From Sinohyriopsis cumingii (Eukaryota; Mollusca; Bivalvia; Unionida; Unionidae): 64,000 bases of DNA. The DNA lies in the NCBI GenBank assembly GCA_028554795.2, contig CM068838.1, forward strand, positions 126,177,928 to 126,241,927. Reading direction: 5' to 3'. The position numbers were made by a program, and so were the translations under genes. Shown here piece after piece: positions 31,920 through 64,000 of this stretch. The notes under the pieces are model-generated. The model was not told the DNA's origin and made no database searches. It worked only from the letters and a program-made list of their open reading frames with translations. Every line of letters starts with the position of its first letter. Within the stretch, counting starts at the first letter, position 1.

Positions 31920-33840
31920 CTATTTTTTGTGTTACTGTTTATTCAAGCCTAAGCACGTAACAAAAGAATATCAACTGAAATCCGTACACGGAGTTGGAGA
32001 TCCAATCATCAGCAATTTGCAGCTGTTTCTTGCTCATGAAGTCATTATATATTAATAAATTGAAGTTTAATTTAAAGATATATTTGCATTAATTATATGA
32101 TGGAGGAGTTTACAAATTATTTGCTATCAAACCTTATCAAGCAAGATTCGATCTTGACAGATTAACCAAGCACACACCCTATCACGTATTAGTTTATGTA
32201 AATCTGGGATTGATTGACCATATCCGTATGGCTTGTCAACATTCAGAGTAAAACACGTTTTCATCGATGCTTACGATAGTGACCAACGAGCAAGAACAAT
32301 CATTGATTATCTAGCCCTGGATGGTAGACAAATATATTTTATCGGAATAAAATGTATATTTTTCGTCAATGACAACGTTGATCCACACGTGGTTGGCGGC
32401 GACAATGATGTAACCTAGATTATCCATGATGAACGTTATCCTGTTCAATAATCACGAAACCGCCCGACTGATAGCATTCATGGTGTTACCGTGTTAGATA
32501 AAACATTAAGACTAGAAATGTTAACTAGCACTGACAAAACATACTAGGAGCAAGCATATCCTGTGACGACCATTGTATATGCGATATTATTGCACAATTT
32601 CCGATGCGACGCGGTACTAGCACAACTACTAGTGTTATCCTAGATTGTGTCGCCCAAAGAATTATAGAACATTTTTGAAAGCGTTATTAAGAAAGGGTCT
32701 TACAGATCTACAACGCGAAAAATAAACTCCTGGGGAAACGAAGTTAGATTAAGTGGATCCACGATAACGGCATCGCTGAGTTTGAAAAGAGCCAAAGATT
32801 TCCAATAGAAGTATGAACATATAAAGTTTTGTACACAGCTAAATCTGTAGGAAATTAAGATCCGTTAGTAATAATTTACAATAACACTCACGCATGGACG
32901 CCAATTATAAGGATATTTCCACGAGAAAAGTGGGTTTTATATGTTACCAGTTCTTGCAACCCTGATGAACGCATCAGTGGTGATAAATTTGAATATATTC
33001 ATGAGATCCGAAAAACCGATCAAATGTCCGTGTGGTTGTTCCAGAGTGACGAGTTAGAAAGATTTGGCCAATTCGTGCTGCCGTGCGGTGATCTTAATCG
33101 TGCGGCATCTTTTTTTCCACAGATGACCAAGACTGCACTGAAATACACTAACAATGAGGAGGAAATATAAAAATTACTGTGAAAACTGTTTTAATGTTCC
33201 GTCTGTTGTTGCACATTTCGCTCAGAAGAAAAATTCATGGAGACCGATACGTGGATAATTTCTTGATGACGTTCAACGATCGTGTGTCGAGTATGGACAT
33301 GGCGGGTTGTAGAATACGAAATATGATTTAAACGAAGTTATCTCAGGTGAAATAGTTGCATATTATCCAAGAGGTTTTCTTGAGATGGGTAAATGTAAGG
33401 AGTATTTTAAACTATTTGGACGTCCAATATATGAGATGACTAGCGTATCGATAAATGGCCCATTACCAGATTTCGATTTAACTGTATTTACGTGCATCAA
33501 GCAATTTTGAGTTTGCTTAGAATATCCGTCCTATTATTGTTGTTCAGTTTGGCCGTTATTTTAATAAAGCCGACGAATTGCTGTGCGAGGAATAAACTAG
33601 TTTGGGCTCCAACAGTGTTATTACGATATATGCTTTATGCAGAGATGCTGACATCGTTAACCGTAATTGAAGCAATGATCTCGTATCGCCCACAAAAGCA
33701 GGTTTGGGTACCAAAACCTGAGAGTGACAATGGCTACGATATATTGCTTGAAAAAGATTTGGATATAAAAATTATAGGTAAATGTATACAAGGAGCGTCA
33801 TCTGATCATCGACGACGTTGCACACTACTGATCATCTAAG
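31920..33840 (+). pseudogene. Decayed virus-like coding region, unassigned
   Basis: The plus strand shows successive protein-like frames separated by stops and frame changes: 31,804-32,055; 32,233-32,418 (HVFIDAYDSDQRARTIIDYL); about 32,950-33,160 (LFQSDELERFGQFVLP); about 33,330-33,510 (VAYYPRGFLEMGKCKEYF, FGRPIYEMTSVSINGPLPDF); and 33,560-33,840 in alternating frames (VQFGRYFNKADELL, CIQGASSDHRR). Segment order suggests one large protein upstream of, or fused to, the polymerase/helicase remnant that follows. I do not recognise the domain. It is too broken to call a product. Confidence 0.35.
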
Positions 33841-49184: not shown

Positions 49185-50150
49185 TATATCATCAATATAT
49201 TGGTTTGAATATATGTAGCTATAATGAAAATTCAGGGCCAACGTTTCATACATGTCTTTGTATGTTGAAGAGATTAAATTAGCTTGCATTTACAGTGTCG
49301 TTTGGTGATTTGCTCCATTAATGACCCCTTTCATGGTGTTTGATTTAGGATTTGGGTTATGTTGAAAGTATCGATTTGTGTAGTAGTATTGTTCTGTAGT
49401 TTGATGCAAGCTGTCAGCGAATTGTTGATAACAAATAACTACAAACCGCTTTGTTCACTTATCTATAAATACTCTAGTCAAGATGTAGTCTCTTCATATC
49501 TTTCCATCTTGTTTTCAACTAGGTACGAAGAAAGACAACAGAGCGATCACATATTTCGTTGTAAAAAGTTGGACGCATTGATCGGTAAGTATGACAAACT
49601 TATCATGTTTTGTGAAGTCTAATTTAGTTATATTGTCTTTGGTATAAGCAACATGTGCAAAAAGCAACAAAACAACAAAGGATGCTCTCGTCAACAGAAG
49701 CGACGAGTCCAAAGACCTCCGTTATAATATCATTATAGTTTGTTCTTTATTGACTTATTATTATTCTCGCGTTAACATCCCGTCACTTATATTTTCAATG
49801 TTAATTAGACTGGGGGTTAGTTGTTCGATGTTAATTTCATTTAACTGTGCGTTATGAAATAGCCAGTTGGAAGTTGGATTTTGACACAGTGGTTTTTATT
49901 TCCGGGTTTCATATTCTTGACGAAACACATCTCATATGCCATATGTTAGGAACTTCCATTTTCAAGAAGAATTATAATTTCCACAAAGTTTCGAACCAAA
50001 TTATTTATTTTGGCCAAACCTTCCTTTCAGAGAACAACTGACGGCTGCCATCAAATGGAAAATATCTGATTGGTCGAAAGAAAAGGTAGATATCACTGCA
50101 ACAACTAGATTTCGATCAATCAGCTGTCGTATCAACATACCTTTCTTACA
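49185..50150. repeat. Dispersed repeat family A plus downstream segment
   Basis: Contains the landmarks of 8,330-8,900 ('gtgtcgtttggtgatttgc', 'gaaagacaacagagcgatcacatattt', 'gcaacatgtg', 'agccagttggaagttggattttgacac'). It then continues into a part that resembles the 1.55-3.36 kb repeat ('ggccaaaccttcc'). Families A and B may thus be parts of one larger element. Confidence 0.6.
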
Positions 50151-50175
50151 TATATATAACAACAGTATGTGAACC

Positions 50176-50450
50176 GCTCTGGTGGCCTAGTGGTTAGGGA
50201 GTCGCGGGTAAGAGCCCCGGCCGAGTCATACCAAAGACTTATAAAAAATGTTTCTAGTAACTGCTTCGCATGGCGCTTAGAATTAAAAGGATAGTCCTTG
50301 GACTGGTCGGCCTGATATCAGGATAATGTGACTGGGTGGGACATGATCCTACATGTCTGTGGCATGATGACCCAGTGTTAGACATCACTAAAAACTGTCA
50401 CATTGCAGACATCGTAGACATTGTACAAGCAACGTTAAAAATCACTCACA
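50176..50450 (+). mobile_element. tRNA-derived SINE, copy 3, head degraded
   Basis: Begins CTGGTGGCCTAGTGGTTAGG (A-box region kept). The B-box region is altered (GTCGCGGGTAAGAGCCCC, no TTCGAAC). The body GAGTCATACCAAAGACTTAT and GTGACTGGGTGGGACAT follow. Confidence 0.75.
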
Positions 50451-50459
50451 CACCCACAC

Positions 50460-51285
50460 AACAGCCTGAGTTGTGTGAATGTTGATAAAAATCGACTGAG
50501 ACATTTAAAATGCTCGTTTGATAATTTTAGAAATTTGTTTGTGAAAAGTAATCACTTGCATATAGCATCCTTCCATGAATGTATCAATAAATCTTAAGCA
50601 TTGAAAATATTGGTAACCTAATGTTACATATACAAAGTTTGACATTCTTTTCTCAACTTTTAAAAAGCAATGTGCTGAACAAAGACTATAGAGAACTTTG
50701 TACAGTTGCATGTATCAATTAATATATAAGAACTCCCTTGTTAAAATCAGTTCTTTCATATATTCCAAACCAGTTGTGTTCTGTGAAATTTAAAGTTTTG
50801 TATTTACATGGTGTGACAGACAAATACACTTTGAATGAAACACACGTAGAATTTGAATAGTGCACATTCGGGGGTACTATAAGGGGGTAGGGTGGGATTG
50901 ATGCGTTTATTAGATGGGATTTATTTTAGGATAGCTACGGTATGGATCATTCCATTTACTTTTCGTCAAGAAAAGTCTTGGAGCCAAACCACTTGGTGTA
51001 CTAATTTAATATTTCACTCATGGTTGTATCTTGATAGAGATGTTGAATATTCCTAAAAGATTATGAAAGCACGTCACAAAGCCAGCCTTTGAAACACGTG
51101 GTCCTTGCATGTTTTTGATTTAACACAGTACACTCTATAATGCGGTATATATGTTATACCAAAGTATCATAATTCAGAATAATAATAAATCAATAAATCA
51201 ATGCAAATGTTCAGAACATCATCACCATACTCTGAAGTCAGATGAACAATCGTTACCCATTGCCGCGGATTATGGACCTATAAGT
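50460..51285. other. Intergenic, nothing recognised
   Basis: No coding signal. Ends at the start of the 46-bp tandem array. Confidence 0.45.
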
Positions 51286-51297
51286 AGTAAATGGGGG

Positions 51298-51555
51298 CAC
51301 CCTAGCGTCAAGGGGAATTAGCATTACAAGACCCCTTGGGCAACTCTAGCGTCAAGGGAAAATTAGCATGGAGAAAAATCGTGGGTCAGATTAGCGTCAA
51401 GGGAAATTAACATGGAGAAAAATCGTGGGTCACTCTAGCGACAAGGGGAATTTAACATGGAACTATAGTGTGGGTCTGTCTAGCGACAAGGGGAAATTAA
51501 CATGGGAATAGAGTTTGGGTTTGTCTAGGGACAAGGGGAATTGAATATGGGATTT
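51298..51555. repeat. 46-bp tandem array at left end of virus-like element
   Basis: About six copies of a unit of the form CTAGCG(T/A)CAAGGGGAATT.A.CATGG...GTGGGTC, drifting gradually along the array. Followed at 51,551-51,588 by a self-complementary (AAATTT)n stretch. Its position beyond the last gene makes it a candidate terminal or subterminal repeat. No second copy is seen at the right end. Confidence 0.8.
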
Positions 51556-51614
51556 TTTTTTTAAATTTAAATTTAAATTTAAATTTAAAAAAAGGGGTAG
51601 GCAATGGAAAGGCT

Positions 51615-51656
51615 ATCTCTTTTCGAGACATATGGCTGGCCCTGAAAAGGGCCTTT
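51615..51656 (-). terminator. Histone-type mRNA 3' end: stem-loop 1 plus purine element
   Basis: On the minus strand, CCCAAA leads into GGCCCTTTTCAGGGCC (51,653-51,638; perfect 6-bp stem, TTTC loop), then AGCCA, and 13 bases later GAAAAGAGAT (51,624-51,615). This is the layout of metazoan replication-dependent histone mRNA ends: CCAAA-flanked stem-loop bound by SLBP, cleavage a few bases later, and a purine-rich downstream element that pairs with U7 snRNA. It starts 25 bases after the stop of the 51,679-52,065 gene. Its stem differs from stem-loops 2 and 3 at the outer pair (G-C instead of A-T), a compensated change. Resemblance is seen directly; function is inference. Confidence 0.75.
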
Positions 51657-51678
51657 GGGTTTTCTTCTTCTTCTGCTT

Positions 51679-52065
51679 CTAATTTCTTCTTTTTCTCCAC
51701 CAAGTTCTTATTTTATCTCCAACACTCTTTCTCTTCTTCTCTTTCTTTTTCTCCTGCTCTTCTTTCTTCTTCTCTTCCTCCTCTTCTTTCTTCCTCTTCT
51801 CATTTTGTTCTTCTTTTTCAATCTTTTCGTTCCATTTGCTTATTCTTATTCTTTCCTCTTCATCCTCCTTCTCCTCCTTTATCTCTTTCATGACACCACT
51901 AATCTTGTCCTTTACCTTTTTTAAGTTATTAATTTCCATCTTTACACGATGGGGACTATAGGAATAATGGTCTTCAACTAGTCTTATTAACATCTGCTCC
52001 ATCATTCCTAAGTTGTCTAAAACGTCTTGTAATTTTTGTATTTTGTCCATTTGGTTAGAAGCCAT
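51679..52065 (-). CDS. Small coiled-coil protein, early-type unit 1
   Basis: 128 residues, ATG start. The N-terminal third (MDKIQKLQDVLDNLGMMEQM...) is a short helical segment. From about residue 55 it is almost entirely Glu/Lys/Arg, a charged single-helix or coiled-coil region. It ends basic with a Trp pair (RTWWRKRRN). No known domain recognised. The gene sits between its own promoter motif (52,126-52,156, with a TATA-like TATAAGAGCC on the minus strand at 52,122-52,113) and a histone-type stem-loop after the stop, the same organisation as the two genes upstream. The opposite-strand frame (51,655-51,924) is a Leu/Phe/Ser shadow. Charged low-complexity proteins in this position may be regulatory or DNA-associated; the function is unknown. 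Confidence 0.7.
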   Translation of the reverse strand: MASNQMDKIQKLQDVLDNLGMMEQMLIRLVEDHYSYSPHRVKMEINNLKKVKDKISGVMKEIKEEKEDEEERIRISKWNEKIEKEEQNEKRKKEEEEEKKKEEQEKKKEKKRKSVGDKIRTWWRKRRN

Positions 52066-52112
52066 CTTCTTTTTTTATTCTTTGCAGAATGGTTTGAACG
52101 ACGAATACTATA

Positions 52113-52158
52113 GGCTCTTATACTTAAAGCGCGTACGTGAAGGAAAACATCCCCCTAA
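52113..52158 (-). promoter_or_regulatory. Shared promoter motif P1a with TATA-like box
   Basis: The plus strand reads AAAGCGCGTACGTGAAGGAAAACATCCCCC from 52,126. On the minus strand this precedes a TATAAGAGCC box at 52,122-52,113. The ATG follows at 52,065. The motif recurs at 52,195, 53,270 and 54,135, each time upstream of a gene or adjacent to one. Confidence 0.7.
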
Positions 52159-52194
52159 AACGTAAAATTGATCTTACCTAGATCATGACCAAAC

Positions 52195-52226
52195 AACGCG
52201 CGAACGTGAAGGAAAACATCCCCCTA
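52195..52226 (-). promoter_or_regulatory. Second copy of the motif, P1b
   Basis: ACGCGCGAACGTGAAGGAAA...CATCCCCC, about 70 bases upstream of P1a. The spacer contains 'aaaattgatcttacctagatcatgacc', and the same spacer reappears after P2 (53,310), so motif and spacer were duplicated together. Confidence 0.65.
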
Positions 52227-52264
52227 CTTTTTCATTTCATATAATAAAACCCAAACTATACTTT

Positions 52265-52665
52265 CTCATTTCATATAATAAAAACCCAAACTATACTCTC
52301 CACATACGCTAAGAAACAATAAACAAAATCCATAATCTACTATCCACACAATCTTACGTGAGCGCTTACAAAACCCAAACTATACTCTTCACATACGCTA
52401 AGAACAATAAACAAATCCATAATCTACTATTCACACAATCGTACGTGAGCGGGTACAAACACAAACACAAACACACAAACACAAACACACAAACACAAAC
52501 ACAAACACATACGCTAAGAACAATAAACTAATCCATAATCTACTATCCACACAATCGTACGTGAGCGCTTACAGAACCCTAACTATACTCTTCACCTACG
52601 CTAAGAAACAATAAAGAAACCCATAATCTACTATTTCCACAAACATACCTGAGCTCTTACAAGCA
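52265..52665. repeat. Array of about 100-bp units with promoter-like core
   Basis: Four imperfect units, each with 'aaactatactct.cacatacgctaag', 'caataaa', 'ccataatctactat.cacacaatc' and '.tacgtgagcgcttac'. The last piece resembles the GCGCGTACGTGAA core of the promoter motif. Between units 2 and 3 lies an expansion of (ACAAAC)n. No coding sequence. It could be an origin, enhancer or decayed promoter array. Confidence 0.7.
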
Positions 52666-52760
52666 CCAACACACAAACACATACCCTCACACTATCTTAA
52701 AAAAGAGTTAATGTTTATAATCACACTACTCTACCTACACACATTGGCAAATCGATCGTT

Positions 52761-52800
52761 ATTTCTTTTCTAGAGTATTGGGTAGCCCTGAAAAGGGCTG
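52761..52800 (-). terminator. Histone-type mRNA 3' end: stem-loop 2 plus purine element
   Basis: Minus strand: AGCCCTTTTCAGGGCT at 52,799-52,784 (6-bp stem, TTTC loop) followed by ACCCAAT, then after 13 bases GAAAAGAAAT at 52,770-52,761. This matches the histone 3' end consensus (GGCYCUUUUCAGRGCC-ACCCA plus an AAAGAAA-like U7 target). It begins 32 bases after the stop at 52,832. Confidence 0.8.
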
Positions 52801-52831
52801 GGGTTTTTTTTGGAACTTCATGGACACCTGG

Positions 52832-53209
52832 TTAATGGTGGCACCTTCCAGGCCTAGCGCCACATACACATCTTGTCCCCCAGTTACTTTTTACCTTTTT
52901 GGGGGAGAGAGCAGAGGCAGGATATGTCGCTTCAGAATCCCAATTTTCGCTCTCTGGGATTCTGAAATTTCTTCTTCTTCTCTCCTTTTCCTCCTCCTCC
53001 TCTTCTTTGTATCTTCTCTCCTCCTCTTTGTATCTTCTTTCTTCTTCTTCTTTATATCTTCTCTCCTCCTCTTCTTTGTTTCTTCTTTCCTCCTCCTCTC
53101 TTATCCTTCCCTCCTCCACAATGGCTTCCGCGGCCAGTTCATTTAATATGCGCCTGGCATATTCCAGATGCACATGAAGTTCCAACAGTTTCTCCAGTCT
53201 CGTGTTCAT
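52832..53209 (-). CDS. Small coiled-coil protein, early-type unit 2
   Basis: 125 residues, ATG start. N-terminus MNTRLEKLLELHVHLEYARRI... is helical. The middle, about residues 35-80, is made of tandem EEERRYKEEE-type repeats, strongly charged. A less biased tail (residues 80-125) has RIPESENWDSEA and a CVCGARPGRC cysteine pair. Unrecognised family, similar in design to unit 1: helical N-terminus plus a charged coil. Upstream at 53,262-53,300 lie a TATA box and the shared promoter motif; downstream lies histone-type stem-loop 2. Plus-strand frames over it (52,778-53,177) are shadows of the Glu-rich repeats. Confidence 0.7.
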   Translation of the reverse strand: MNTRLEKLLELHVHLEYARRILNELAAEAIVEEGRIREEEERRNKEEEERRYKEEEERRYKEEERRYKEEEEEEKERRRRNFRIPESENWDSEATYPASALSPKKVKSNWGTRCVCGARPGRCHH

Positions 53210-53261
53210 TTTTCGTGTTGATCAATCAACAAGGGTAGCTGGACTGCCGAACGATTTTCAA

Positions 53262-53300
53262 TTTATAGTGAAAGCGCGGACGTGAAGGAAAACATCCCCT
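53262..53300 (-). promoter_or_regulatory. Shared promoter motif P2 with TATA box
   Basis: Plus strand AAAGCGCGGACGTGAAGGAA...CATCCCC from 53,271. On the minus strand it is directly followed by CACTATAAAT (53,270-53,262). A degenerate second copy lies at 53,341-53,365. The ATG of unit 2 is at 53,209. Confidence 0.7.
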
Positions 53301-53559
53301 AAAAACATAAAATTGATCTTACCTAGATCATGACCATAAAACAACGCGCCGACCTAAAAGAAACACTCACTAACTTTTTATGCTACCCATCACTATTTTA
53401 AATTTTTTTATAAATCACTTCAATAGACTATCCACATACGCAAAGCAATCCAATCTAACCCCAAATTTACACCTCAAACACCAAAAAAAAAAAAAAGACA
53501 TCATTTTAATCTACTGTCCATACCAACTTACTTAACCACTTACAAACACAAACACACAA

Positions 53560-53685
53560 ACACATACCCTCACATTTTTTTAAAAAAGAGTTAGTGTTTA
53601 TTTTCACACTACTCTACCTACACACATTGGCAAATCGATTGTTATTTCTTTTCTAGAGTATTGGGTAGCCCTGAAAAGGGCTGTT
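53560..53685. repeat. 125-bp block duplicated from 52,680-52,800
   Basis: The 3' flanks of units 2 and 3 share a long block, from 'aaacacataccctcaca' through 'ttcacactactctacctac' and 'attggcaaatcgat.gttat' to the stem-loop. The copies differ at scattered positions, so units 2 and 3 probably arose by duplication including their 3' ends. Confidence 0.8.
53644..53684 (-). terminator. Histone-type mRNA 3' end: stem-loop 3 plus purine element
   Basis: Minus strand: AGCCCTTTTCAGGGCT at 53,682-53,667, then ACCCAAT, then GAAAAGAAAT at 53,653-53,644. Identical in stem, loop and spacing to stem-loop 2. It lies 33 bases after a stop (53,717-53,719) that closes the same frame as unit 3. Confidence 0.8.
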
Positions 53686-53716
53686 TTTTTTGTTTTGTTT
53701 GCTATGGCATTCTTTT

Positions 53717-54097
53717 CTAGTTTCTAAGAATGCGATGTCCTCTGAGTTTAGACTTTCTGGCGATAGGTCTGCTTCTTCGGAAAGAGAAGAAGAACTCTTT
53801 GGTGTCGATACGACAATCGACAAAGCCTCTGTCAGCTTCAGGCTGCTGCTGCTGCTCTTGTTGTTGTTATTGCTGCTGTCTCTGAAGTCTGTACTTCTCT
53901 GTCCATTCTTCTTTTTCCCTGTTCATTTCTTCTCTGAAGAGCTCTTCTATCAGGTCTTCAGTGATTTTTAACATTCTCACATTCTCTATTTCTTCTGGCT
54001 TCGGTATCAGACTGTGTCTGACCCTATACAAATTCACGTAGGCTTCGTTGAGTTTAGCTAGTTTGGAGCACATCTTCTTAGGAGGATGAGTCGACAA
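53717..54097 (-). pseudogene. Small helical protein, early-type unit 3 (stop in polyQ)
   Basis: ATG at 54,097. The first 76 residues (MSTHPPKKMCSKLAKLNEAY...) are helical and charged, ending in a glutamine run. The run is cut by TAA at 53,867-53,869, a likely CAA-to-TAA change. The same frame then resumes with more glutamines and stays open to 53,717. An alternative frame after the polyQ tract reads TPKSSSSLSEEADLSPESLN, which looks equally protein-like, so a frame slip in the repeat is also possible. Either way the gene is interrupted or shortened in this copy. Promoter motif P3 lies just upstream and stem-loop 3 downstream, as for units 1 and 2. Family unknown. Confidence 0.6.
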
Positions 54098-54123
54098 TGG
54101 ATGGTTAGACTGGAAACAACCCG

Positions 54124-54166
54124 GTTCTTAAAGTCAAAGCGCGGACGTGTAGGAAAACATCCCCCA
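54124..54166 (-). promoter_or_regulatory. Shared promoter motif P3
   Basis: Plus strand AAAGCGCGGACGTGTAGGAA...CATCCCCC from 54,136. The minus strand continues into a TTTAAG box at 54,131-54,126 (weaker TATA-like). The ATG of unit 3 is at 54,097. Confidence 0.65.
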
Positions 54167-54269
54167 CACGGTTTTTGAGTCGCAACGTTTAGTGAGTGTC
54201 ATGAGAGGGATAGTAAGAAATGAAAGAGCATCAATCCAACATTCTTATAGCTAAACAAAAGACAAAGGC

Positions 54270-54447
54270 ATTTTTTTTCAAAACACAACATTTTTTATTC
54301 AAAAATCACTTAACACTAAACAACAACTCTAACATTTTTAACAATAATCCAACAATATAACATCAAACAATTTTTTCAAAACACAACATTTTTTATTCAA
54401 AAATCACTTAACACTAAACAACAACTCTAACATTTTTTAACAACAAT
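54270..54447. repeat. Tandem pair of about 75-bp units carrying poly(A) signals
   Basis: Two nearly identical copies (about 54,272-54,345 and 54,371-54,447). Each has TTTATT on the plus strand, i.e. AATAAA on the minus strand, at 54,294-54,299 and 54,392-54,397. They lie just after the capsid gene stop and probably provide its poly(A) sites. Confidence 0.75.
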
Positions 54448-54502
54448 GCAACACTAAAAGTTTCTCCACTAGGTAAAGAGGGATAACAGTCTTCCATGGT
54501 TT

Positions 54503-55816
54503 CTAGTAATCTAGGATGACTTCTCTCAAACTGTTGATTTCTATGGTATTATCGAATTCTGCATACAGGATGACGTTCACCGTTTCATCAGGGTCTCGGT
54601 CTTTAAACTGAATTTCCACACGAATCTGGCCGGATTTTATAGGGTGGAAATGTCCCTCGTCGCTGCCTTGGTCTGGAGTGAAATCGAAAGCCCACAAAGC
54701 GTAGCCTCCTGCATAATCCTCGTACGTAATACCGTGACTGGTATTGGTTCCTAACTGTCCGGTGGCTTCGTACAGGGACAAGTACGATCTCAAGTAATTC
54801 TTCTTGGTAAAGTCAGGTTCGAAAGGTCGGGTACACAAGGTCTTGCCATCGCGACTGACTTCGATTTTGGACACGCCAAAGTGTTGAAAGTAGAAAGGAT
54901 TTTTTTCGGCAGCTCCGTTGAAGGCTGTATTTTCGACGATACCAACGATCAAACGTTTGGGTAACTGTCCTTGGAACAGATGATCTTCGATCATGGATCG
55001 CTGTCCCTTGGGAATGGTGAAGGTTTTCACTTCCACGCGTCGTATCGGATACTTGGCAGTCGTTCTGTTCAACGTCTGACTGATGTCGTTTCCCACTTTA
55101 GGTAACACTTCCACACGGCGTACGTAGAGTCTGGCTTCTAGGATTTTGGTTTTGTAACCGTCACTATCAGCCATCAAATGGAAAGCGGCACTGCTACGAT
55201 TCAGTCTCAGGCGGACATCCACCCCGTTCAGCAAATACTTTTCTTGCAACCACATGTCCAAATGCAAACGATCCATCAGTTCTAAACTTGTGTCGGCTCC
55301 CGTGATTCTCTTTCTTCGTTCTACAAATCCATCATTGTTGTCTTTCTTTTCATCAGTTTCCAATATTTCAAACTTGGTAGGTTCGTCAGCTTCCCATACC
55401 ACACAGGCATTGAGATGAGTGTTCTTGGCATCTATTCCGTACATCAAGAGATTTTCCAGGTAGGCACGATAAGGGTAAGTATCCATGCTGCTACTGACCA
55501 GTTTGTTATTCAAGTACAAGTCCACTCCACTGAACAAGGAATGCATGAAATTGTTGACGGGAGCTACTGCTTCATCGTCTATAGCACCTCCAGTCTTATC
55601 TAGAATTTTGACTTTCAGGTACAAGTAACTGCTATTCAGATCGATGTAATCTTCGGGCTGTCCCTTGATTTCAAACTCGATGGGAGCGGAATCGGTCAGT
55701 GAGGAGACGGGGTGAAATTCCACCCACTGGGATTCTTGCATCGTCATCATGGTGGGGGGCATGGCAAACAGATCCAGTTCCGTCTTGGAACAAGCGCAAG
55801 ATTCTCGGTGCATCAT
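54503..55816 (-). CDS. Major capsid-like protein (F54H12.2-like)
   Basis: 437 residues, intact, ATG start at 55,816. N-terminal signature CSKTELDLFAMPPTMMTM, then WVEFHPVSSLTDSAPIEFEI, then EDYIDLNSSYLYLKVKI. This is the conserved start of proteins annotated in many invertebrate genomes as 'F54H12.2-like'. The C-terminus ends EIQFKDRDPDETVNVILYAE. I infer a double jelly-roll major capsid protein from its length, beta-rich sequence, and company with penton-like, core-peptide and integrase genes; the name itself carries no function. It is the last gene of the packed block, 16 bases after the small GLG protein, and is followed by two AATAAA sites and no histone-type stem-loop. Frame is fully open, which points to a recent insertion. 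Confidence 0.8.
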   Translation of the reverse strand: MMHRESCACSKTELDLFAMPPTMMTMQESQWVEFHPVSSLTDSAPIEFEIKGQPEDYIDLNSSYLYLKVKILDKTGGAIDDEAVAPVNNFMHSLFSGVDLYLNNKLVSSSMDTYPYRAYLENLLMYGIDAKNTHLNACVVWEADEPTKFEILETDEKKDNNDGFVERRKRITGADTSLELMDRLHLDMWLQEKYLLNGVDVRLRLNRSSAAFHLMADSDGYKTKILEARLYVRRVEVLPKVGNDISQTLNRTTAKYPIRRVEVKTFTIPKGQRSMIEDHLFQGQLPKRLIVGIVENTAFNGAAEKNPFYFQHFGVSKIEVSRDGKTLCTRPFEPDFTKKNYLRSYLSLYEATGQLGTNTSHGITYEDYAGGYALWAFDFTPDQGSDEGHFHPIKSGQIRVEIQFKDRDPDETVNVILYAEFDNTIEINSLREVILDY

Positions 55817-55832
55817 TTTTTTGTCTCTTTTC

Positions 55833-56249
55833 TCAATAATCGAAAACGTCTAAGTCTCGAACGGTTCTTCTTTTCTTGGCCTTTCTAGCTTGAAGTCTGG
55901 TGAAAGGGTGTTTTCTTCGTCGTCTCTTTCTGCCTTGTCCTTGCTGAATGCCTGACTCGGTAGCGTGCAGGGCATTTATAGGTGTTTCTCGGTGACCCAA
56001 AATGTCTTTGCCCGTTTGCAGCAAGACATTTTTGCCTGCCCTCATGAAGGCTTCTTTAGGGTTTTGTTTGTCGATGATGACATTTTGGAGAAATTCTTTG
56101 CCTTGAGTCAGTGCCGCATCTTTCAAGGCGTGCAATCCGCGTGTCACCATCGGTTTCAACACCGGGGACACCGAACGAAAGGCCGATTTTAACATATCTC
56201 CTAAACCGTGTCCTCGCTGTCGTGCAACCCCTCGGTACACTGGATACAT
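55833..56249 (-). CDS. Small basic GLG capsid-associated protein
   Basis: 138 residues, ATG start. N-terminus has RGHGLGDMLKSAFRSVSPVL, a short amphipathic segment after a GLG motif, as in the pVI/pX-type minor proteins of Polinton-like elements. The C-terminus is strongly basic (GRKRRRRKHPF, ARKAKKRRTVRD), like a nuclear-localising or DNA-condensing tail. It lies between the penton-like and capsid genes, with 3 and 16 bases of spacing. I infer a virion membrane-active or DNA-binding protein. No frame breaks. Confidence 0.65.
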   Translation of the reverse strand: MYPVYRGVARQRGHGLGDMLKSAFRSVSPVLKPMVTRGLHALKDAALTQGKEFLQNVIIDKQNPKEAFMRAGKNVLLQTGKDILGHRETPINALHATESGIQQGQGRKRRRRKHPFTRLQARKAKKRRTVRDLDVFDY

Positions 56250-56252
56250 GAC

Positions 56253-57213
56253 TTACGAGTCGTGAGAAAACCGTTTTCGAAAATGGAGTTTCACCGTGAC
56301 TTTTCCTTTGGTGAATGTAATATTTTGTCCCAGATCTCCTTTTATAGCAATGTTGACCGTGTCCAAATACGACTTGCTGACAGGCAAATAGTGAGGATGG
56401 AAAAATTCGCGGGGGGACGTGGTAAGTGTTTCCACCTTCCTCGTCAGTGACCGTGGCAGAATTTACTTTGAAAGGAATGACACGCAGTAACGGCACGGAG
56501 GTGTGTCCCACCACGTTGTACTCCACCACATCGGAGTACACGAACATCAAATTCAGTCCTTGGTTCAGTTCTACCGGGAAACGAAAATACCTTGCAAAAT
56601 GCATGCCGTTGTCAATCTCTGCCATTTTAATTTTTTTGGTCTGCTTATCCGTAACCAAATTGAGGTCTCCACCCAAAATGTCACACAATCCAGGGCAAAA
56701 TTTAATACGTATACTTCTTTCCTCACTATCAAATTTAATGAGTAGACGATGAGACTGTTTGTGGTACTGAATGGTGACACGTTTATCTACTTTGGTCAGA
56801 ACTTTGTCAAAGGTTGCGTAGAATTTGTCAGCGATGGCCTCCACCAGATGTTGACCACTAATATAATGGCCTGAATTAATTTTAAAGTGATAAACGAAAA
56901 GTGGAGGAGAAGAGTCACTGCTGCGTGGTAATAGGTCCTTTGCAAGATGTGAGTTACGTTGAGGACTGCCCGTCATGGTTTGCTGCAGTGCTGGGTCCAA
57001 AATTTCGACGTCAAAAGTGTTTTGAGTTTCAGTGATGTTTTTGATTTGTGTAGGCTGAATCATTTCTACCAAAGCCACTTCCCAATGGGCTTCGTGATCT
57101 AAGGGGATGGCCTGAGGTAATTTGGCCGTGTAACAGCACAACGTGTTGTTGGGAAACACCTCCATGGAACTGTCACTGGGTAAGGTTAAGTAAAATTGGT
57201 TTTGGTGACTCAT
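56253..57213 (-). pseudogene. Penton-like minor capsid protein, one frame break
   Basis: ATG at 57,213 overlaps the stop of the membrane-protein gene (ATGA). N-terminus NQFYLTLPSDSSMEVFPNN, then YTAKLPQAIPLDHE.HWEVALVEM: the usual start of penton/minor-capsid proteins in animal Polinton-like elements (F.LTLPS.SS...F..NT...Y...LP..I.L....EVAL.E). The frame is open to a run of six G on the plus strand at 56,411-56,416. Protein-like sequence continues in another frame (PREFFHPHYLPVSK ... LHFRKRF) to a stop at 56,253, three bases before the next gene's ATG. Total length is therefore about 320 codons. The long 385-residue frame past the break overlaps the next gene and is not real. The break may be a true one-base indel or a homopolymer assembly error. 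Confidence 0.7.
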
Positions 57214-57620
57214 AATTCCAGAGTTCTGTGGCTGTCCGAGGGGTTACTGGACGTCAGAGGCGTGTCTCCGCCCAAAATGGGGTTGTTGTTGTTGGAGTGG
57301 TGACTGGCACTGGCACTGGACACAAGGTTCCCGTGGTTCCCGTTGGAAGAGAATTTCAGGGAGGGATTGCGAAGCAGGTAACCGATGCAACTGCTCAATA
57401 AAATGGTCCACAATTGTTTGTCTCCTTGTTGCAAACTCAAATTGGCAATGGCTGCCCCGATGACACAATACACCACGAAGATTTGGCAGAAAAAGACGAT
57501 TTGCGTTTTAGGCACACGTTCTCCACAACACACCCACAAGGGTTGTTTTTGTAAATCTTGCACAGAAGAACTAGGTGAAGGAGGAGTGGTCGACGTAGCT
57601 GCGTCTGTGTGAAAGGGCAT
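57210..57620 (-). CDS. Small membrane protein of the virus-like element
   Basis: 136 residues from ATG 57,620 (an upstream GTG at 57,629 is in frame, but the ATG lies 5 bases after the integrase stop). Residues about 30-65 include WVCCGERVPKTQIVFFCQIF, then VVYCVIGAAIANL: one clear transmembrane helix. A second hydrophobic stretch (WTILLSSCIGYLL) follows about 10 residues later. The tail is Ser/Asn-rich and polar. A two-helix hairpin protein placed between integrase and penton genes. Similar small hydrophobic proteins occur in related elements. The role is unknown; virion membrane or host-membrane association is a guess. Stop overlaps the next ATG. Confidence 0.65.
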   Translation of the reverse strand: MPFHTDAATSTTPPSPSSSVQDLQKQPLWVCCGERVPKTQIVFFCQIFVVYCVIGAAIANLSLQQGDKQLWTILLSSCIGYLLRNPSLKFSSNGNHGNLVSSASASHHSNNNNPILGGDTPLTSSNPSDSHRTLEL

Positions 57621-57625
57621 GATGG

Positions 57626-58734
57626 TCACTTCTTTTTACAATCGATGACTTGCGAAGCGTCGATCCAAGAATCAAAACTGGGTGGATATCCTTTCCAACG
57701 TACTTTGACTTCTTTGACACGTCGTTTGCCCACTTTACGGGTTCTGCGTTCGAGAATGCTTTCGATGTCGTACACGTCGTCTTCTTTTTTGGTGACACGT
57801 TGTAACTCAGGCAAATAAAACGTTCCTTTGAGCACTTCTCCGTTCATGTCTTCCAATTTATAGACGGCAGGATGACGGCCATGCACTCGTCCAGTGACGC
57901 GAAACAATTCGGTCGTCCAGTTAGGTAAGTAACCTTTGTCGAAAGTGCGTTTGATTTTGCCAATGGGCACCCAATCTCCTACGGCCAACTCTCCACTTTT
58001 CTTGGGGACAGCTCTCGTCGGGGACGTACCAAACAGGCGCTCAAACACCAACACTTCGTTGTCGGGAGTCACTTCTTGCGGGGCACGTCCGATGCTTCGA
58101 TGGTAAGATTGGTTGTACGTTTGCACCAGGTGCGGTAAGATGTTGATGTACTTCAGAGTGTGGTGATGCGTAAAATATTTCCACATGCGTTCTTTCAAAG
58201 TCGTTGAAAACGTTCCACGATGCTGGCTTTGGTTTCGGGATTCTCGGTGGTAAAAAAATGAATGTCACGTTTCTTTAATTCTTTTTGGAAAGCTTGGTTC
58301 AGAAATTCGGTGCCTTTGTCCGTTTGCCATCGAAGAGGATGACGACCGCTTTGTTTCAACACCCGTTGCAGGGCTCGCACTAACTCGCTGCTCGATTTGG
58401 AAGTCAAGGGCACGACCCAGGCAAATTTGGAAAAGACGTCGATGACACAAAACAAATATTTGTAGCCACGATTGTAGCTGGCCAAATGAGAGACATCGGC
58501 TAAATCGGCTTGCCATTGATGATCGATGCCTTCCACTCGGGTGCGACTTCTGGCAAACTTGCGTCGAATGGGTTTGTGTAAAGTGTAGGTAGCTTGTTCT
58601 TGTAACCATCGTTGCACTTGAGGTAAACGGAGACTTTTCAGTCGCGTTTTGGCAGCACGATACAATTTTTGAACTCCTGCGTAACCTGCAGGATGCGAGG
58701 GATCGTAGTAAATGCTGGCTAAGACCTTTTCCAT
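57626..58734 (-). pseudogene. Integrase with C-terminal chromodomain (F54H12.3-like), one frame break
   Basis: ATG at 58,734. N-terminus IYYDPSHPAGYAGVQKLYRA, then TYTLHKPIRRKF (zinc-lacking linker). The rve core has IDHQWQADLADVSHLASYN (first Asp), WQTDKGTEFLN (second Asp) and KASIVERF (Glu, 35 residues after the second Asp). The frame then hits a stop at 58,195-58,197. The protein resumes one frame over with KERMWKYFTHHHTLKYIN, through YNQSYHRSIGRAP and KGYLPNWTTELFRV, to a chromodomain (DVYDIESILERRTRK ... VRWKGYPPSFDSW) ending at 57,626. Such proteins insert the element's DNA, with the chromodomain thought to guide target choice. The break lies within a few bases of 58,200. It could be a real indel or an assembly error. 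Confidence 0.8.
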
Positions 58735-58755
58735 TTTTTTGTGTTGGTTGGTGTG

Positions 58756-59400
58756 TTAATAAGGCACCCACTCTTGGAAGATGCTACTCTTTTTCTCTTG
58801 GGGTATTTTCTTGGATTGCAATGCTTTGCGTGTGCGACCGGCAATAGGTGTTGAAGAGGAGGATGTCTGAGCGGGGGATATCGGTTCTTGTTTCACTTCT
58901 GTCTTCACTTCTGTCTTCACTTTCTTTTTCTCTTGTGATGAAGAAGGGGTGGCCATCATCTTTTTAATCCATCCAATTCTGGAGGTAGGTGGTGTTGTTA
59001 ACTTGCGTACTTTTTCTGGTGGAGTTTGAAACCCTTCTTCTTCTTCTTCTCCTTTTTCTGTCTTGGTCACTGGTAGTGGTGGTACTGGTACTGGTACTGG
59101 TACTGGTGATGGTGCTGAACTTTTCATCAAGGTCTTAAAATCTTTCAGAGTGGGTAGAGCTGTTTCGTCTAAAGCTTTCTGGTGAAAGAGTTGCAGTCGT
59201 TGCAAGAGTTGACCGTACTTTTGCGATTTTTCTGTTTCGGACAAATCTTGGCGATCCATCAAGGACTGCAATTCGTGTTGTAACTGGGACATCTCACTCA
59301 AATGGGGATTGGGAGGTAAATGCGGGGTGCGTTGTTCTTGCCAACGATGGTATTCCATCCATCGTTTGTAAGGCACTAAAGCCAGTTTTCGTCCTTCCAT
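58756..59400 (-). CDS. Conserved basic/proline-rich protein of unknown role
   Basis: 214 residues, ATG start. N-terminus GRKLALVPYKRWMEYHRWQE is the best conserved-looking part (a KLALVPY.RW pattern that recurs, as far as I recall, in relatives of this element). Then a helical Gln/Leu-rich stretch (LQHELQSLMDRQ, residues 40-85), a Pro-Val repeat (PVPVPVPVPPLPV, about 100-110), and a Lys/Glu tail with SUMO-like VKTEV.VKQEP repeats. It sits 21 bases before the integrase and follows the core-peptide gene. Possibly a virion or regulatory protein. Function unknown. Confidence 0.6.
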   Translation of the reverse strand: MEGRKLALVPYKRWMEYHRWQEQRTPHLPPNPHLSEMSQLQHELQSLMDRQDLSETEKSQKYGQLLQRLQLFHQKALDETALPTLKDFKTLMKSSAPSPVPVPVPVPPLPVTKTEKGEEEEEGFQTPPEKVRKLTTPPTSRIGWIKKMMATPSSSQEKKKVKTEVKTEVKQEPISPAQTSSSSTPIAGRTRKALQSKKIPQEKKSSIFQEWVPY

Positions 59401-59449
59401 GGGGTTGTCAGGGGTCGATTCTGAGATCTTGGGACTTCCGAGGGTCTTT

Positions 59450-59836
59450 TTATCTTGCTCCCACCAGTCCTCCCAACATGGTTCCCAAGACTCCTTTCAG
59501 TAAGGGGCCTAACAAGAGAGGCAAAATGCCTCCACGCTGGACCAACATCTTCTTCTTTTGACGAATGGGAATTTTCTTTTGAACCATTTGGCGAAGAACG
59601 TGACGATGTTTGCTTAAGCATTGTTTCTGGTGTTTGGACAAAGGGATCGTGCCTTTCAAGACGTTCAAACAACATTCGCACACGGTATCGATGACCTCTT
59701 TGGAGGCCAATTGAATGAGTTTTTTTCGTAGAGGTGGAGAAGCTTTGGACAGGACAGATAACATGTCCCCATGTTTGACTAAACGTGGTGGTAGTCCTTT
59801 TCTTTTCTTTCCTTGGGGTTTTCTGGAGGGTGACAT
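59450..59836 (-). CDS. Core-peptide-like basic protein with hydrophobic C-terminus
   Basis: 128 residues from ATG 59,836 (the open frame extends to 59,920, but only via a GTG). A central VIDTVCECCLNVLKGTIPLS leads to KHQKQCLSKHRHVLRQMVQK and IPIRQKKKMLVQRGGILPLL, then GPLLKGVLGTMLGGLVGAR. A Cys-x-Cys-Cys cluster, a block of Arg/Lys/His, then QRGG plus a Leu/Gly tail is characteristic of adenovirus pX/pVI-like core or membrane-lytic peptides, and of the corresponding small genes in Polinton-like elements (family recalled). I infer a virion DNA-associated, membrane-active protein. No frame breaks. Confidence 0.65.
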   Translation of the reverse strand: MSPSRKPQGKKRKGLPPRLVKHGDMLSVLSKASPPLRKKLIQLASKEVIDTVCECCLNVLKGTIPLSKHQKQCLSKHRHVLRQMVQKKIPIRQKKKMLVQRGGILPLLLGPLLKGVLGTMLGGLVGAR

Positions 59837-59898
59837 CTTTGAGTCTTCAGGAGCACCAAAAAAAACACTGATACCCCTGACTTGGTCACACACCTTTT

Positions 59899-60534
59899 TT
59901 ATACTGGAACGCGTCGCCACTGATTGTCTTTACGTCGTATTAGTTTGAGGACAGGCATGACACGTCGTGCAGGGGTACGTAACGGACTAAATCGAGTCAG
60001 TTCTTGCTTGGACAAATCCAGTAAACTTTGTAACATGCCCGATCTTTCTTGAACTTTGATTTTGGGAGAAGGTACTTTGTGAGCAGCAGCCACTGCCACT
60101 AAATTAGAGGGTCCTGCCACTGGGGAAGTTCTTTTTGGGGTCATCAACGGGGAAGTTCTTGGTGTGATCAACGTCTCCAAGTACTCTTCAGTTCTTGGTG
60201 TCATCAACGGAGAAGTGGATGAACGTGAGGCTGCCGGAGACACAGTTACCGCCGTGGCAGGTCGTGGTTTGCGAGTGTAAAGTTGCGTCCTGGCCGAAGT
60301 GCCTCTCTTGCGACTAGTTTTCTTCTGTGGACTTTTCTTTTTCTGGGGGCTTCTTTTCTTTTTCCGGGGTGGTGTCTGATAAGAGGAGGGTCCCGCCACT
60401 GGAGAAGTTCTCCTTGGGGACCTGGTCTTTTTCTTTTTCTTCTTGGGGCTTCGTTGGACTTTTTTCTTGGGGATAATTTTGGGGGCATTAGGATCCCATC
60501 TTAAGAGAGAGCGAATGATGACCCCTCCTAGAGT
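59899..60534 (-). CDS. Basic protein, N-terminal gene end missing (partial)
   Basis: 211 codons open, ending at 59,899, with no ATG in frame. The frame runs upstream to a TAA at 60,535-60,537. Near the start it reads GGVIIRSLLRWDPNAPK, then long Lys/Arg/Ser/Pro-rich stretches with repeated SPVAGPS, TPRTSPLMTP and KRTSPVAGPS units. A tail reads RSGMLQSLLDLSKQELTRFS and VMPVLKLIRRKDNQW. A Lys/Arg/Ser protein at the head of a capsid block fits a virion DNA-binding protein, but the family is unrecognised. The lack of an ATG next to a composition change suggests the element is truncated here. A 5' exon upstream is the alternative. An overlapping ATG frame (60,488-60,246) is discounted. Confidence 0.5.
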   Translation of the reverse strand, partial: TLGGVIIRSLLRWDPNAPKIIPKKKVQRSPKKKKKKTRSPRRTSPVAGPSSYQTPPRKKKRSPQKKKSPQKKTSRKRGTSARTQLYTRKPRPATAVTVSPAASRSSTSPLMTPRTEEYLETLITPRTSPLMTPKRTSPVAGPSNLVAVAAAHKVPSPKIKVQERSGMLQSLLDLSKQELTRFSPLRTPARRVMPVLKLIRRKDNQWRRVPV

Positions 60535-60539
60535 TTACG

Positions 60540-61060
60540 AAACATAACGAGCGCGAACCGTGTGAACAATCGTCAATCCTTATCCAGAGTTACGAGTCTA
60601 CTATTACGTCTGGCATTGTTCGCATTAAATCGCCGTTTATATCGTCTTTTCATTGGCTGGCATATGATATACTGGTTTAAGTTGCTTTCTGGATTATACG
60701 ATTGACTGTCAAACAAGAGGTCACATATAGATTGATCCCATCATCCGATTCTAGATCATGTGCTTGTAGCCTATCTAGGTAAATTCATTTTCTCTAGTTA
60801 GGAAACTTCGTGTAAATACTGCCAACAAAAGTAACAATGAAGAAAACGTTGTCTTGCAGTCTGAGAGATACATAACAAGTTGTCTTTCAGTCCAAAGAAT
60901 ATAGAATGTAATAGTATCCACAAACTTCATTCGTAGACCAACCCGCCATTACATAGCATTGGCCACATTTCGCAATACGATAATAGGTTGATTTAAATGA
61001 CAAGCATACATTTACCCATTTCATAGTTTGTGCTTATGTCATACAGTGATTGCTCGTTTT
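60540..61060. other. Intergenic, nothing recognised
   Basis: AT-rich flank beyond the element's right end. No coding signal. Confidence 0.45.
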
Positions 61061-63930
61061 ATTATATACCATGGAATGACGATCGTGCAACAATGTCCCC
61101 GAAGTTATTAATTAAGCCATATCGATTTTCAGCGGATGCTGACTAATCATCCCATGGATAGAGAAAGATATAATACGTTAATACACGAACGGTTTCGAGA
61201 TTTCAATGAAATAGAAAAAAAAGCAACGAAGATTTCTGAAACAACCAAAACGGTTCGAAGAGAGATGCATCATGGTTAATCCAATCGTGTGGTACGTGAA
61301 ATATATGCTTCAATGCAACAGACGGTTGTAAAATACAATCCAGAGCGTGACTTTGATGCTCCCTATCTCATCCGCCAAGCCATTATTCAGAGTGAAGTTT
61401 TCTGCAAATGTGATCACCGGTGACTCACGCACTATTGAGATCGCACTTGACTCGTTGTGAGCGTATTCTAGTTGCCCTTATATTGGATTTCATCAGCTTG
61501 GTGGTCTGTCGGCAAAAATATTCGTCTGTGTTGTCGTCAGATAATGGTACCGCGTGGTACACCATTGAACTTCCCTCTAAGGCATTCGGTACTACGTCAA
61601 TCATTGATGCGGTTCCATGAAGATTTTCAGTGTTGACTGACAAGAACAATACAATTTATATTGGCGAACACAGGCATAAAATCATCTTTGCTACTGTCAT
61701 TGTCTCTACACAATATCTAGTCAGCAATAAACAGCAGCCGTTGAGAGCTGTGTTATCTTGGCTCCAAGGTCTTCACGAAAGTATGCAGGACCTAAAGGGA
61801 CAGGGTATCATATCTGGAGTGACATTGTGAGAATTACCTCAGCAACACAAGTGAATTTAACTTCTGATGTAATTAGTGTGACTTGATCTCGATTACGCTT
61901 GCAGCACCCGTGTATTCGATATGCCATAATAATCGGCTGACACATATTCTTGTTTCCCTAGTGGATCAAGTTGGTCACAAAGTGGTTCTGCAAGGAGAAA
62001 TATTGACGATACAACTGTTCCTAAATATCGGCATTACATTTAATAATTATAACAACACGAATGACTGTCATGCATGGATGTATCAAGCCTATTCGCTTAC
62101 TTAACGCAAGAAAACTCGTGTACGTAAATTATTACGGGCTTGGTACCGTTGTTCGTGGATAATTTGCAAGCGAAATAAAAAATCACGGATCTGACATCGC
62201 ACACTTCTTTCAACCCTATACAAGTGACCATAAGGGTTGTGGATAGTGAGAAACGTACTGCTGTATATCAGTTAAAATAACTTTGTTCGTACGCAGCATA
62301 GACTTCTGAAGATCGATTATAGCTATCACTAGTACTATCACCAAGGACACCTCCAGCTACATTGCCATCGACCAAATCAATACCACCTGCAGTAAGTAAA
62401 ATCAGAAACGAAGCCACTCAACAGCGATTTCCTGATTCAACGTCTGCAAATCTGGCCATGGTGAGTGGATTTGCACGGTATTGAAAACAAATCAATAATG
62501 TAAATCCCATGACCCAATTGAAAGATGTATTTGACCCGGCATTTGATGTGGTAGCAGCGTTTGTAAGTGGATCAAAGCAAACTAGATTTCCAGTATTACT
62601 CATATCCAGCCAGAGATTCCAATCAATTAAACAATGAGTTCCAATTGCAACATGCCTCTTGTTTTATCCTTCCATGTGAAGCTTTATTTGTCAGTGGAGT
62701 GAAAATTGGTACTCGAAAATAATGCCAATTACGAAGCCAATGCCCACGTGGGATTTCTTAGCAATTGCATACTAGCGTTGTTTAAAAAGTGCACCTTACC
62801 CATCGATGGAAAAGAAATCAAAGTCATTCTGAACAGCGGTAATGTTGCAACGACGATTCTCTGAGTCGCCATATATAGCGATGGTTACACTAGAACCGCC
62901 GGCCCAACCATGATGTTTGTCAAAAGATGCAGCTGATTACTTAGACCAATGACCGCTTAAATTTCAGCAAATTGTACAGTATTATATCGTGGAACCACAA
63001 CCTGATGGCATGGATTCCAGACCTGGCACCGGCGCTCCATTGGTGAAAGGTCCTAACCCAAATTAAAATCTTGGGTTTGCGCAGCACTGAGCACAACGTT
63101 GTGGAGCCTCATTACGATTCTCGTGTACCATTCACTTCAGTCAAATCTCTGGTATTTGCAGAGCTGTTCAACATGTGATATTTGAGGCGAAACACACGGT
63201 CACCTTGTGTTGTAAAAACAACTTCATCTATGCCATTTGGAGTGTTGCAGGTGCTGCTGCCGGTAAAGTTGTATTAGTTGCACTGATTTTATGAATGCCA
63301 CTGTTATGTCATTCACTGAAAACAGAATCACGCTTGTTATTGTTATGCAATCAGAACCCACATCAAAGTTGTCGTATCGAGTACATACCACAGACGCACA
63401 CCAACCTAATGGCATTGTGGGTCTGTTTACTTGTCAAATAAGTGCTCAGCATTGGTCTTACTTTACCAAAAACACAAGTGCTCTTGAAGTATTTACTTGC
63501 AGAGTACTCACTCGACATGACACAGAGTAAAATTATACTTGACAACATAGAAGTGATTGAGGTCTCATGGATGAGAAACGGTCATTATAATCCTTCGACA
63601 GAAATACGGCTTGTCTATGCAGAAGCCAATCATACTGTATGGGCATATCACAATAGTTTGTCGTACAAGGACAAACGTCCAATCAGTGATGCACGTCTGC
63701 AAATTTCTCAACAAAGTCATTCGTACGTTTTATCCGATGTATTAAATTTCCTTGGAGCATCTAGAGGTGTTCAGGCAATCCGTTGTAGGTTTGTTGCATA
63801 CATGTGTAGGTAACGCTGGTGATGCTAAGTACAAGAATCGTGTTGAGATACTTTTAGACAAGACGTCGTTGTTGGAGGGTGCTGGTGATCAAATAAAGAT
63901 CATAGATGTACTTGAGGAACATATATAACT
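61060..63930 (+). pseudogene. Decayed virus-like coding sequence, unassigned
   Basis: A string of plus-strand protein-like fragments in changing frames: near 61,130-61,300 (NHPMDRERYNTLIHERF, then KISETTKTVRREM), 62,500-62,640 (DVFDPAFDVVAAFVSGSK, then LNNEFQLQHASCFILPCEAL), 62,720-62,870 (NANYEANAHVGFLSN, then LFKKCTLPIDGKEI), 63,010-63,180 (STEHNVVEPHYDSRVPF) and 63,442-63,813 (ILDNIEVIEVSWMRNGHYNP). The end shows NRVEILLDKTSLLEGAG. The ANAHVGFLSN ... PIDGKEI stretch could belong to a capsid protein of the same kind of element as at 19.6 and 32-37 kb, but I cannot assign it. Many stops and frame changes. Confidence 0.3.
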
Positions 63931-64000
63931 GAACGTTTTATGTATTGGAATAATAATGTTCAATCACAGAACGAGCATATGCTCTTCTCTAAGTCAGCCG

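Follow-up and report, generated by a model that had tools for sequence, protein, structure and literature searches.

Can genes that encode no histone end in the 3′ signals of replication-dependent histone mRNAs, and can such genes belong to a virus-like element? The question is raised by a 64,000-nucleotide (nt) stretch of the bivalve Sinohyriopsis cumingii (Unionidae; assembly GCA_028554795.2, contig CM068838.1, positions 126,177,928 to 126,241,927), hereafter the window, in which three small genes with signals of this kind adjoin genes of a Polinton/adintovirus-like element. In animals, SLBP binds the hairpin of the message, U7 pairs with a downstream element, and CPSF73 cuts between them; the resulting histone mRNA has no poly(A) tail and reaches high levels in S phase (PMC7026596, PMC5706932, and PMC5011920, each available in part). 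The descriptions of this 3′ end concern replication-dependent histone genes (available parts of PMC5706932 and PMC5011920). An earlier note, made from the letters of the window, had proposed histone-type, S-phase-coupled ends on one gene class of the element. The signals are present with no histone gene, and the membership of the genes in the element is probable, so this interpretation is partly supported. We lean, with some reserve, toward the view that the three genes are a duplicated class of the element and that their mRNAs would be ended by the host histone pathway (SLBP and U7) to give S-phase messages.

The signals, all on the minus strand, consist of three stem-loops (SL1–SL3), each followed by a purine element.

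51638..51653, minus strand: stem of SL1; 6-bp stem, TTTC loop, flanks CCAAA and AGCCA; RF00032 score 33.3 bits, E 1.9e-6 over 51613-51658
52784..52799, minus strand: stem of SL2; 6-bp stem, TTTC loop, outer pair A-U, flank ACCCA; RF00032 score 27.3 bits, E 3.2e-4 over 52759-52804
53667..53682, minus strand: stem of SL3, a copy of SL2; TTTC loop, 3′ flank ACCCA; RF00032 score 31.0 bits, E 1.4e-5 over 53642-53687
51614..51624, minus strand: purine element of SL1; contains AAAAGAG, 14 nt beyond the stem
52756..52770, minus strand: purine element of SL2; AAAAGAAAT, 14 nt beyond the stem
53639..53653, minus strand: purine element of SL3; AAAAGAAAT, 14 nt beyond the stem

The coordinates and anatomy of the hairpins agree with those given in the earlier note. 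In a covariance search of 50000-64000 against 4227 Rfam families with an E-value threshold, the histone 3′ stem-loop family RF00032 supplied the top three matches of all families, on the minus strand, and the next match had an E value of 0.33. RF00032 was absent from the seven matches at E up to 0.5 in 1-51000. The 6-bp stem, the 4-nt pyrimidine-rich loop, and the ACCCA-type flank of a histone-type hairpin were found at all three sites, and the expected hairpin was present in the predicted RNA fold of each 56-nt stretch, with z scores of −3.14 (SL1, a value that scores two hairpins jointly and to which the second contributes), −2.45 (SL2), and −2.64 (SL3). A motif rule fitted after the sites had been seen, which demands the complete stem with G-C as its second pair, the loop, the A[CG]C flank, and the purine element, matched SL1–SL3 and nothing else on either strand and was never matched in 200 dinucleotide shuffles; dropping the purine element from the rule left the outcome unchanged (three in the window and none in 200 shuffles).

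Chance hairpins, or terminator-like signals acting on the other strand, are an explanation that we regard as barely credible. A looser hairpin pattern allowing up to three mismatches is a weaker test: it gave four matches against 0.54 expected, a count reached in 1 of 100 shuffles, and its fourth match (32778-32793) is not a hairpin. Read on the plus strand, the three hairpins also pass a simple bacterial terminator pattern. Chance is clearly contradicted by the absence of the full rule from all shuffles and by E values of 1.9e-6 to 3.2e-4 across the 4227 families, and the terminator idea by DNA that looks animal. The plus-strand terminator reading was dropped, as it leaves the loop and the purine element unexplained. 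The three hairpins are real and very unlikely to be products of chance.

The purine elements point the same way. AAAAGA starts exactly 14 nt after the stem in all three cases, a constant distance that had been put at about 13 nt in the earlier note. AAAGAG, present behind SL1, is the core of the mouse H2a downstream element (HDE) (PMC7026596, available in part). U7 itself had no match in the window, either in the default Rfam scan or in the E-threshold searches of 50000-64000 and 1-51000. Judged by the covariance model, the spacing, and the shuffles, SL1–SL3 look like genuine histone-type signals.

Which genes do these signals serve? Each hairpin follows a small open reading frame (ORF) on the same strand, and each ORF is preceded by a promoter-like repeat.

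51679..52065, minus strand: gene 1; ORF of 128 amino acids (aa), coiled-coil-like, with a basic C terminus and an isoelectric point (pI) of 9.3
52832..53209, minus strand: gene 2; ORF of 125 aa with a charged repeat, coiled-coil-like, pI 5.95
53717..54073, minus strand: gene 3; first stop TAA at 53867-53869 in a Gln run, the frame going on to TAG at 53717-53719
52113..52155, minus strand: promoter-like repeat of gene 1; TATAAG 57 nt before the ATG, with a second repeat copy at 52182-52224
53258..53300, minus strand: promoter-like repeat of gene 2; TATAAA 58 nt before the ATG
54123..54165, minus strand: promoter-like repeat of gene 3; TTTAAG, a poor TATA box, 59 nt before the ATG

The stems had been placed 23-33 bases past the stops. 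This is accurate for gene 1 (25 nt) and gene 2 (32 nt), but the stem of gene 3 lies 184 nt from the first stop and 34 nt only from the second. The part of gene 3 beyond the internal stop matches the C termini of its relatives P0123-P0125 (69% over 42 residues with P0123), so gene 3 is a real gene whose present copy is interrupted. Its five relatives are 86-119 aa long and 76-81% identical; four come from the source 'jgi' (77-81%) and one from 'lgn', P0122 has a different C-terminal half, and P0126 is incomplete. Residues 1-72 of gene 1 have one relative among two candidates, P0121 of Sinanodonta woodiana (91% identity over 81% of the query), a freshwater mussel that likewise belongs to the family Unionidae. 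Gene 1 and P0123-P0125 share a pI above 9 and basic tails. That no histone gene is present, as the earlier note had stated, was borne out by a Pfam scan of all 31 window ORFs of at least 90 aa, none of which matched a histone family; the Pfam matches of genes 1, 2, and 3 and of the gene 3 relatives were weak, lay below the cut-off, and included no histone.

Genes 1–3 share a promoter-like motif. A 25-mer from the promoter-like repeat occurs, within one mismatch, in four copies in the window and in none of 100 shuffles. All copies lie upstream of genes 1–3: two before gene 1 and one before each of the others. Measured from the first base of the ATG, the end of the stem lies 428, 426, and 407 nt downstream in genes 1, 2, and 3, respectively. 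On the sequence evidence, the promoter-like motif, the TATA-like box, and the spacing together amount to the arrangement of a class of histone-sized genes in which no introns are visible.

How the class arose can be followed in part. SL2 and SL3 lie inside one duplicated block of 188 nt that is 87% alike; the 44-nt signal is 98% alike between them and the following 90 nt is 92% alike. Because they share this block, there are two independent versions of the signal, not three. Between SL1 and SL2, the identity is 73% within the 44-nt signal and falls to 49% in the 90 nt that follow, where shuffled sequence reaches 54%; since these 90 nt align no better than shuffled sequence, only the signal has been kept alignable. 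SL1 has G-C as its outer pair, and SL2 and SL3 have A-U, so that both sides have changed and one pair is compensated. The compensation claimed for stem 1 relative to stems 2 and 3 thus stands, with the qualification that the latter two are duplicates and count as one version. The conserved signal with its compensated pair suggests selection, and this evidence is modest because it concerns one pair. A duplication history could not be read from the coding DNA: genes 2 and 3 align at the level of shuffled sequence (0.642 against a mean of 0.641 in 30 shuffles), and the remaining gene pairs gave 0.722 and 0.636, figures that carry no shuffled null. The common origin of genes 1–3 therefore rests on a weak N-terminal likeness of gene 2 to genes 1 and 3 (judged by eye), the promoter-like motif, and the SL2/SL3 block. 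Repeated units occupy 52283-52620, between gene 1 and SL2, and the stretch that corresponds to them between gene 2 and SL3 is considerably shorter. Just past SL1, at 51294-51550, five to six direct repeats lie about 45 nt apart, and an end of the element is possibly near.

The duplication also bears on a quite improbable alternative, in which the hairpins are functionless passengers that the element picked up with the end of a host histone gene and then spread by duplication. The decay of the element and the likeness of SL2 and SL3, which extends into the 90 nt downstream, are what such a history would leave. It is opposed by SL1, whose signal was kept, with a compensated pair, beside a downstream flank that cannot be aligned, and by the placement of the signals on the coding strand, 25-34 nt after the stop (the second stop in gene 3), with constant spacing of the purine element.

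No AATAAA lies between stop and stem in any of genes 1–3. The capsid block upstream, by contrast, ends in AATAAA sites, as the earlier note had it:

54273..54437, minus strand: exact repeat pair of 67 nt after the capsid gene; each copy with AATAAA (54299 and 54397)

What, then, is the neighbouring element? A scan of prokaryote genomes provided material for comparison, namely four loci in bacterial metagenome-assembled genomes (MAGs) that resemble animal element DNA:

L002: endosymbiont of Escarpia
L003: Bathymodiolus symbiont
L004: Breoghania MAG
L005: Rickettsiaceae MAG

Polinton-type DNA in four bacterial MAGs, two of them from named animal symbionts, is probably host contamination. Pfam identified in L002 a DNA polymerase (DNA_pol_B_2), an Adeno_IVa2-like ATPase, and an rve-chromodomain integrase, as well as an adenovirus-protease-like protein under the cut-off. 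The four loci are distant from the window element (26-45% capsid identity), and L002 extends only 1.3 kb past the capsid gene. The following genes were recognized in the window:

54503..55816, minus strand: major capsid protein, F54H12.2-like, from relatives in the protein database
55833..57620, minus strand: minor capsid, penton-like, and membrane protein genes, from tblastn with L002 proteins; frame change in the penton-like gene near 56462-56473
57626..58734, minus strand: rve-chromodomain integrase in two frames (Pfam rve 1e-14, Chromo 3.5e-9); break near 58201-58264

The capsid protein has 1010 relatives at E ≤ 1e-3. Among the best 120 of these, 13 are named F54H12.2-like, all from bivalves and 44-53% identical; we take the F54H12.2-like proteins to be hexon-like (double jelly-roll). 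The four closest capsid relatives listed, P0001-P0004, are 78-85% identical and named 'hypothetical protein', and P0003 (81%) comes from the source 'jgi'. A sequence-profile search with the capsid protein gave no match in the PDB. The rve-chromodomain integrase expected of a Polinton or adintovirus is present, though split across two frames. In tblastn at E 0.01, the family B DNA polymerase, packaging ATPase, and protease of L002 had no counterpart in the window, and of the 47 inverted repeats in 40000-64000, the longest 25 include no pair that frames the element. As these three genes were not found, the window copy is best described as a Polinton-derived remnant, and because the L002 polymerase and ATPase lack a counterpart, it seems to be cut off near 59895-60530. 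This interval (minus strand) holds a long Lys/Arg/Ser/Pro-rich frame that lies upstream of the element genes and shows no in-frame ATG close to where it begins; a 101-aa ORF inside it has no Pfam match. A further piece of a mobile element lies at 23109-23696 on the plus strand, a 195-aa ORF with a Pfam integrase core (rva_4, E 2.3e-9, above the cut-off).

Do genes 1–3 belong to this element? The earlier note had included them in it. In support, they lie on the same strand directly after the capsid block, and relatives of gene 3 and of the capsid protein share the source 'jgi' and have diverged to a similar degree (about 80% identity); against it, L002-L005 contain no convincing relatives of them. 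On the sequence evidence, membership is probable. Because the four related loci show neither the signal nor convincing relatives of the genes, genes 1–3 are perhaps host genes beside a truncated element, and the main rival explanation takes this further: they would be a mussel family of replication-coupled nonhistone genes that a truncated Polinton adjoins by chance. We consider this unlikely, yet it deserves more weight than either alternative above. L002 has a protease-like gene after its capsid gene, where the window has the small genes. The relative of gene 1 is filed under a mussel genome, and AATAAA sites of the capsid block itself precede gene 3. Composition can be read in the same direction, as the guanine-plus-cytosine (GC) content of 51300-54300 (0.385) lies between that of stretches of 1-51000 (0.33-0.36) and that of the capsid block (0.46), close to that of 60600-64000 (0.40). 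A chance neighbourhood is less easily reconciled with the shared strand and direct adjacency of all three genes, with the common 'jgi' source of four of the five gene 3 relatives (77-81%) and the close capsid relative P0003, or with the lack of any Pfam domain above the cut-off in genes 1–3.

Wider searches for the element or its signals were made in virus collections. No relatives were found in IMG/VR with the capsid protein, the capsid alignment, the gene 3 alignment, the L002 polymerase, or the second integrase piece, and capsid tblastn against the phage collection gave no match. Two histone-hairpin patterns hit three IMG/VR contigs, which are bacteriophage-like by their reading frames (judged by eye) and have no purine element behind the hairpin. 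L001 had no RF00032 match at E ≤ 0.1. In L003, shortly after the capsid gene (11734-11798, plus strand), there is a weak match to the type-P1 twister ribozyme (28.9 bits against 67.2, E 0.034).

Here, we propose a mechanism for genes 1–3 as a duplicated gene class of a bivalve Polinton/adintovirus-like element. Their mRNAs would be short and apparently intronless, and the host histone pathway would have ended them, with SLBP on the hairpin and the U7 small nuclear ribonucleoprotein (snRNP) on the AAAAGA element. CPSF73, which cuts about five bases after the stem, would cleave between the hairpin and the AAAAGA element and leave mRNAs without a poly(A) tail. In S phase, when the DNA of the element can replicate, these messages would then build up and be translated. 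The capsid block, by contrast, would use ordinary poly(A) sites. Processing of the gene 1–3 mRNAs by SLBP and U7 is likely.

Several observations weigh against this proposal. The scores of SL1–SL3 are all below the RF00032 gathering score of 34 bits, so that they fall outside the family by the curators' rule, and for this reason the default Rfam scan of the whole window lists nothing. The covariance search suggested in the earlier note thus matched RF00032 at all three sites, but under the cut-off and in none of the related elements: L002-L005 gave no RF00032 match at E ≤ 1 (0 of 4), and the single hairpin that a stem scan detected in them has neither the flank nor the purine element. When the N termini of genes 1 and 2 and the gene 3 relatives were compared with these four loci, the best E value was 0.15, and no convincing relative emerged. 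The purine element of SL1, unlike those of SL2 and SL3, folds into a second predicted hairpin (51610-51665, minus strand), which could hinder access of U7. Past SL3, there is an AATAAA at about 65 nt (53602) and an ATTAAA at about 157 nt (53510). The human histone gene H2AC18, with an overlapping AAUAAA, can use either end-forming route (PMC9756948, available in part); because of this precedent, the gene 3 message could be polyadenylated by way of the AATAAA past SL3. Finally, the comparison offers two independent signal versions and one compensated pair, gene 3 carries an internal stop, the polymerase, ATPase, and protease were not found beside the capsid block, and the integrase and penton-like genes change frame. 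A copy damaged in this way points to a system that once worked rather than to one expressed today. The proposed interpretation is plausible and unusual, and its basis is a single decayed locus in which the signal exists in two independent versions.

In the full-text literature, no report of a Polinton, an adintovirus, or another virus-like element with ends of this kind was found by titles and abstract starts among the matches listed; most subscription papers lie outside this scope. A survey of animal DNA viruses reports a histone-like gene in a clam adomavirus, and the words stem-loop and polyadenyl- are absent from the available part of its text (PMC11071296). A broader proposal is that the histone 3′ end pathway was co-opted by a bivalve Polinton/adintovirus lineage and serves it as a temporal switch, which would set S-phase, nonpolyadenylated, SLBP-bound messages of a duplicated class of small, partly basic coiled-coil proteins against polyadenylated capsid mRNAs. 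This proposal is tentative, and we give it somewhat less than an even chance. If it is true, a DNA virus or transposon would thereby have a novel means of coordinating its gene expression with DNA synthesis in the host, and such genes would be hidden from poly(A)-selected RNA sequencing. The hairpin and the purine element together make a cheap search rule for further elements.

Compared with known systems, the 3′ ends of genes 1–3 share with the replication-dependent histone mRNA the 6-bp stem, the UUUC loop, the A[CG]CCA flank, and the purine element 14 nt past the stem. Like the genes for such mRNAs, genes 1–3 are short, show no visible introns, have a TATA-like box, and lack AATAAA before the hairpin. 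They differ in that they encode no known histone, score just under the Rfam cut-off, and have an outer A-U pair in two of the three stems. In the bivalve Lucina pectinata, histone mRNAs have a palindrome near the stop, and a purine element is nearby in H1_A, H2A_X, H3, and H4 (PMC6210712, available in part); the likeness is one of description, and those genes encode histones, unlike genes 1–3. With Polinton/Maverick elements and adintoviruses, the window element shares the integrase, membrane protein, penton-like, minor capsid, and capsid genes in the order of L002. It differs from them in its broken integrase and penton-like genes, in the polymerase, ATPase, and protease not found in the window, and in the block of small genes with histone-type ends that adjoins it.

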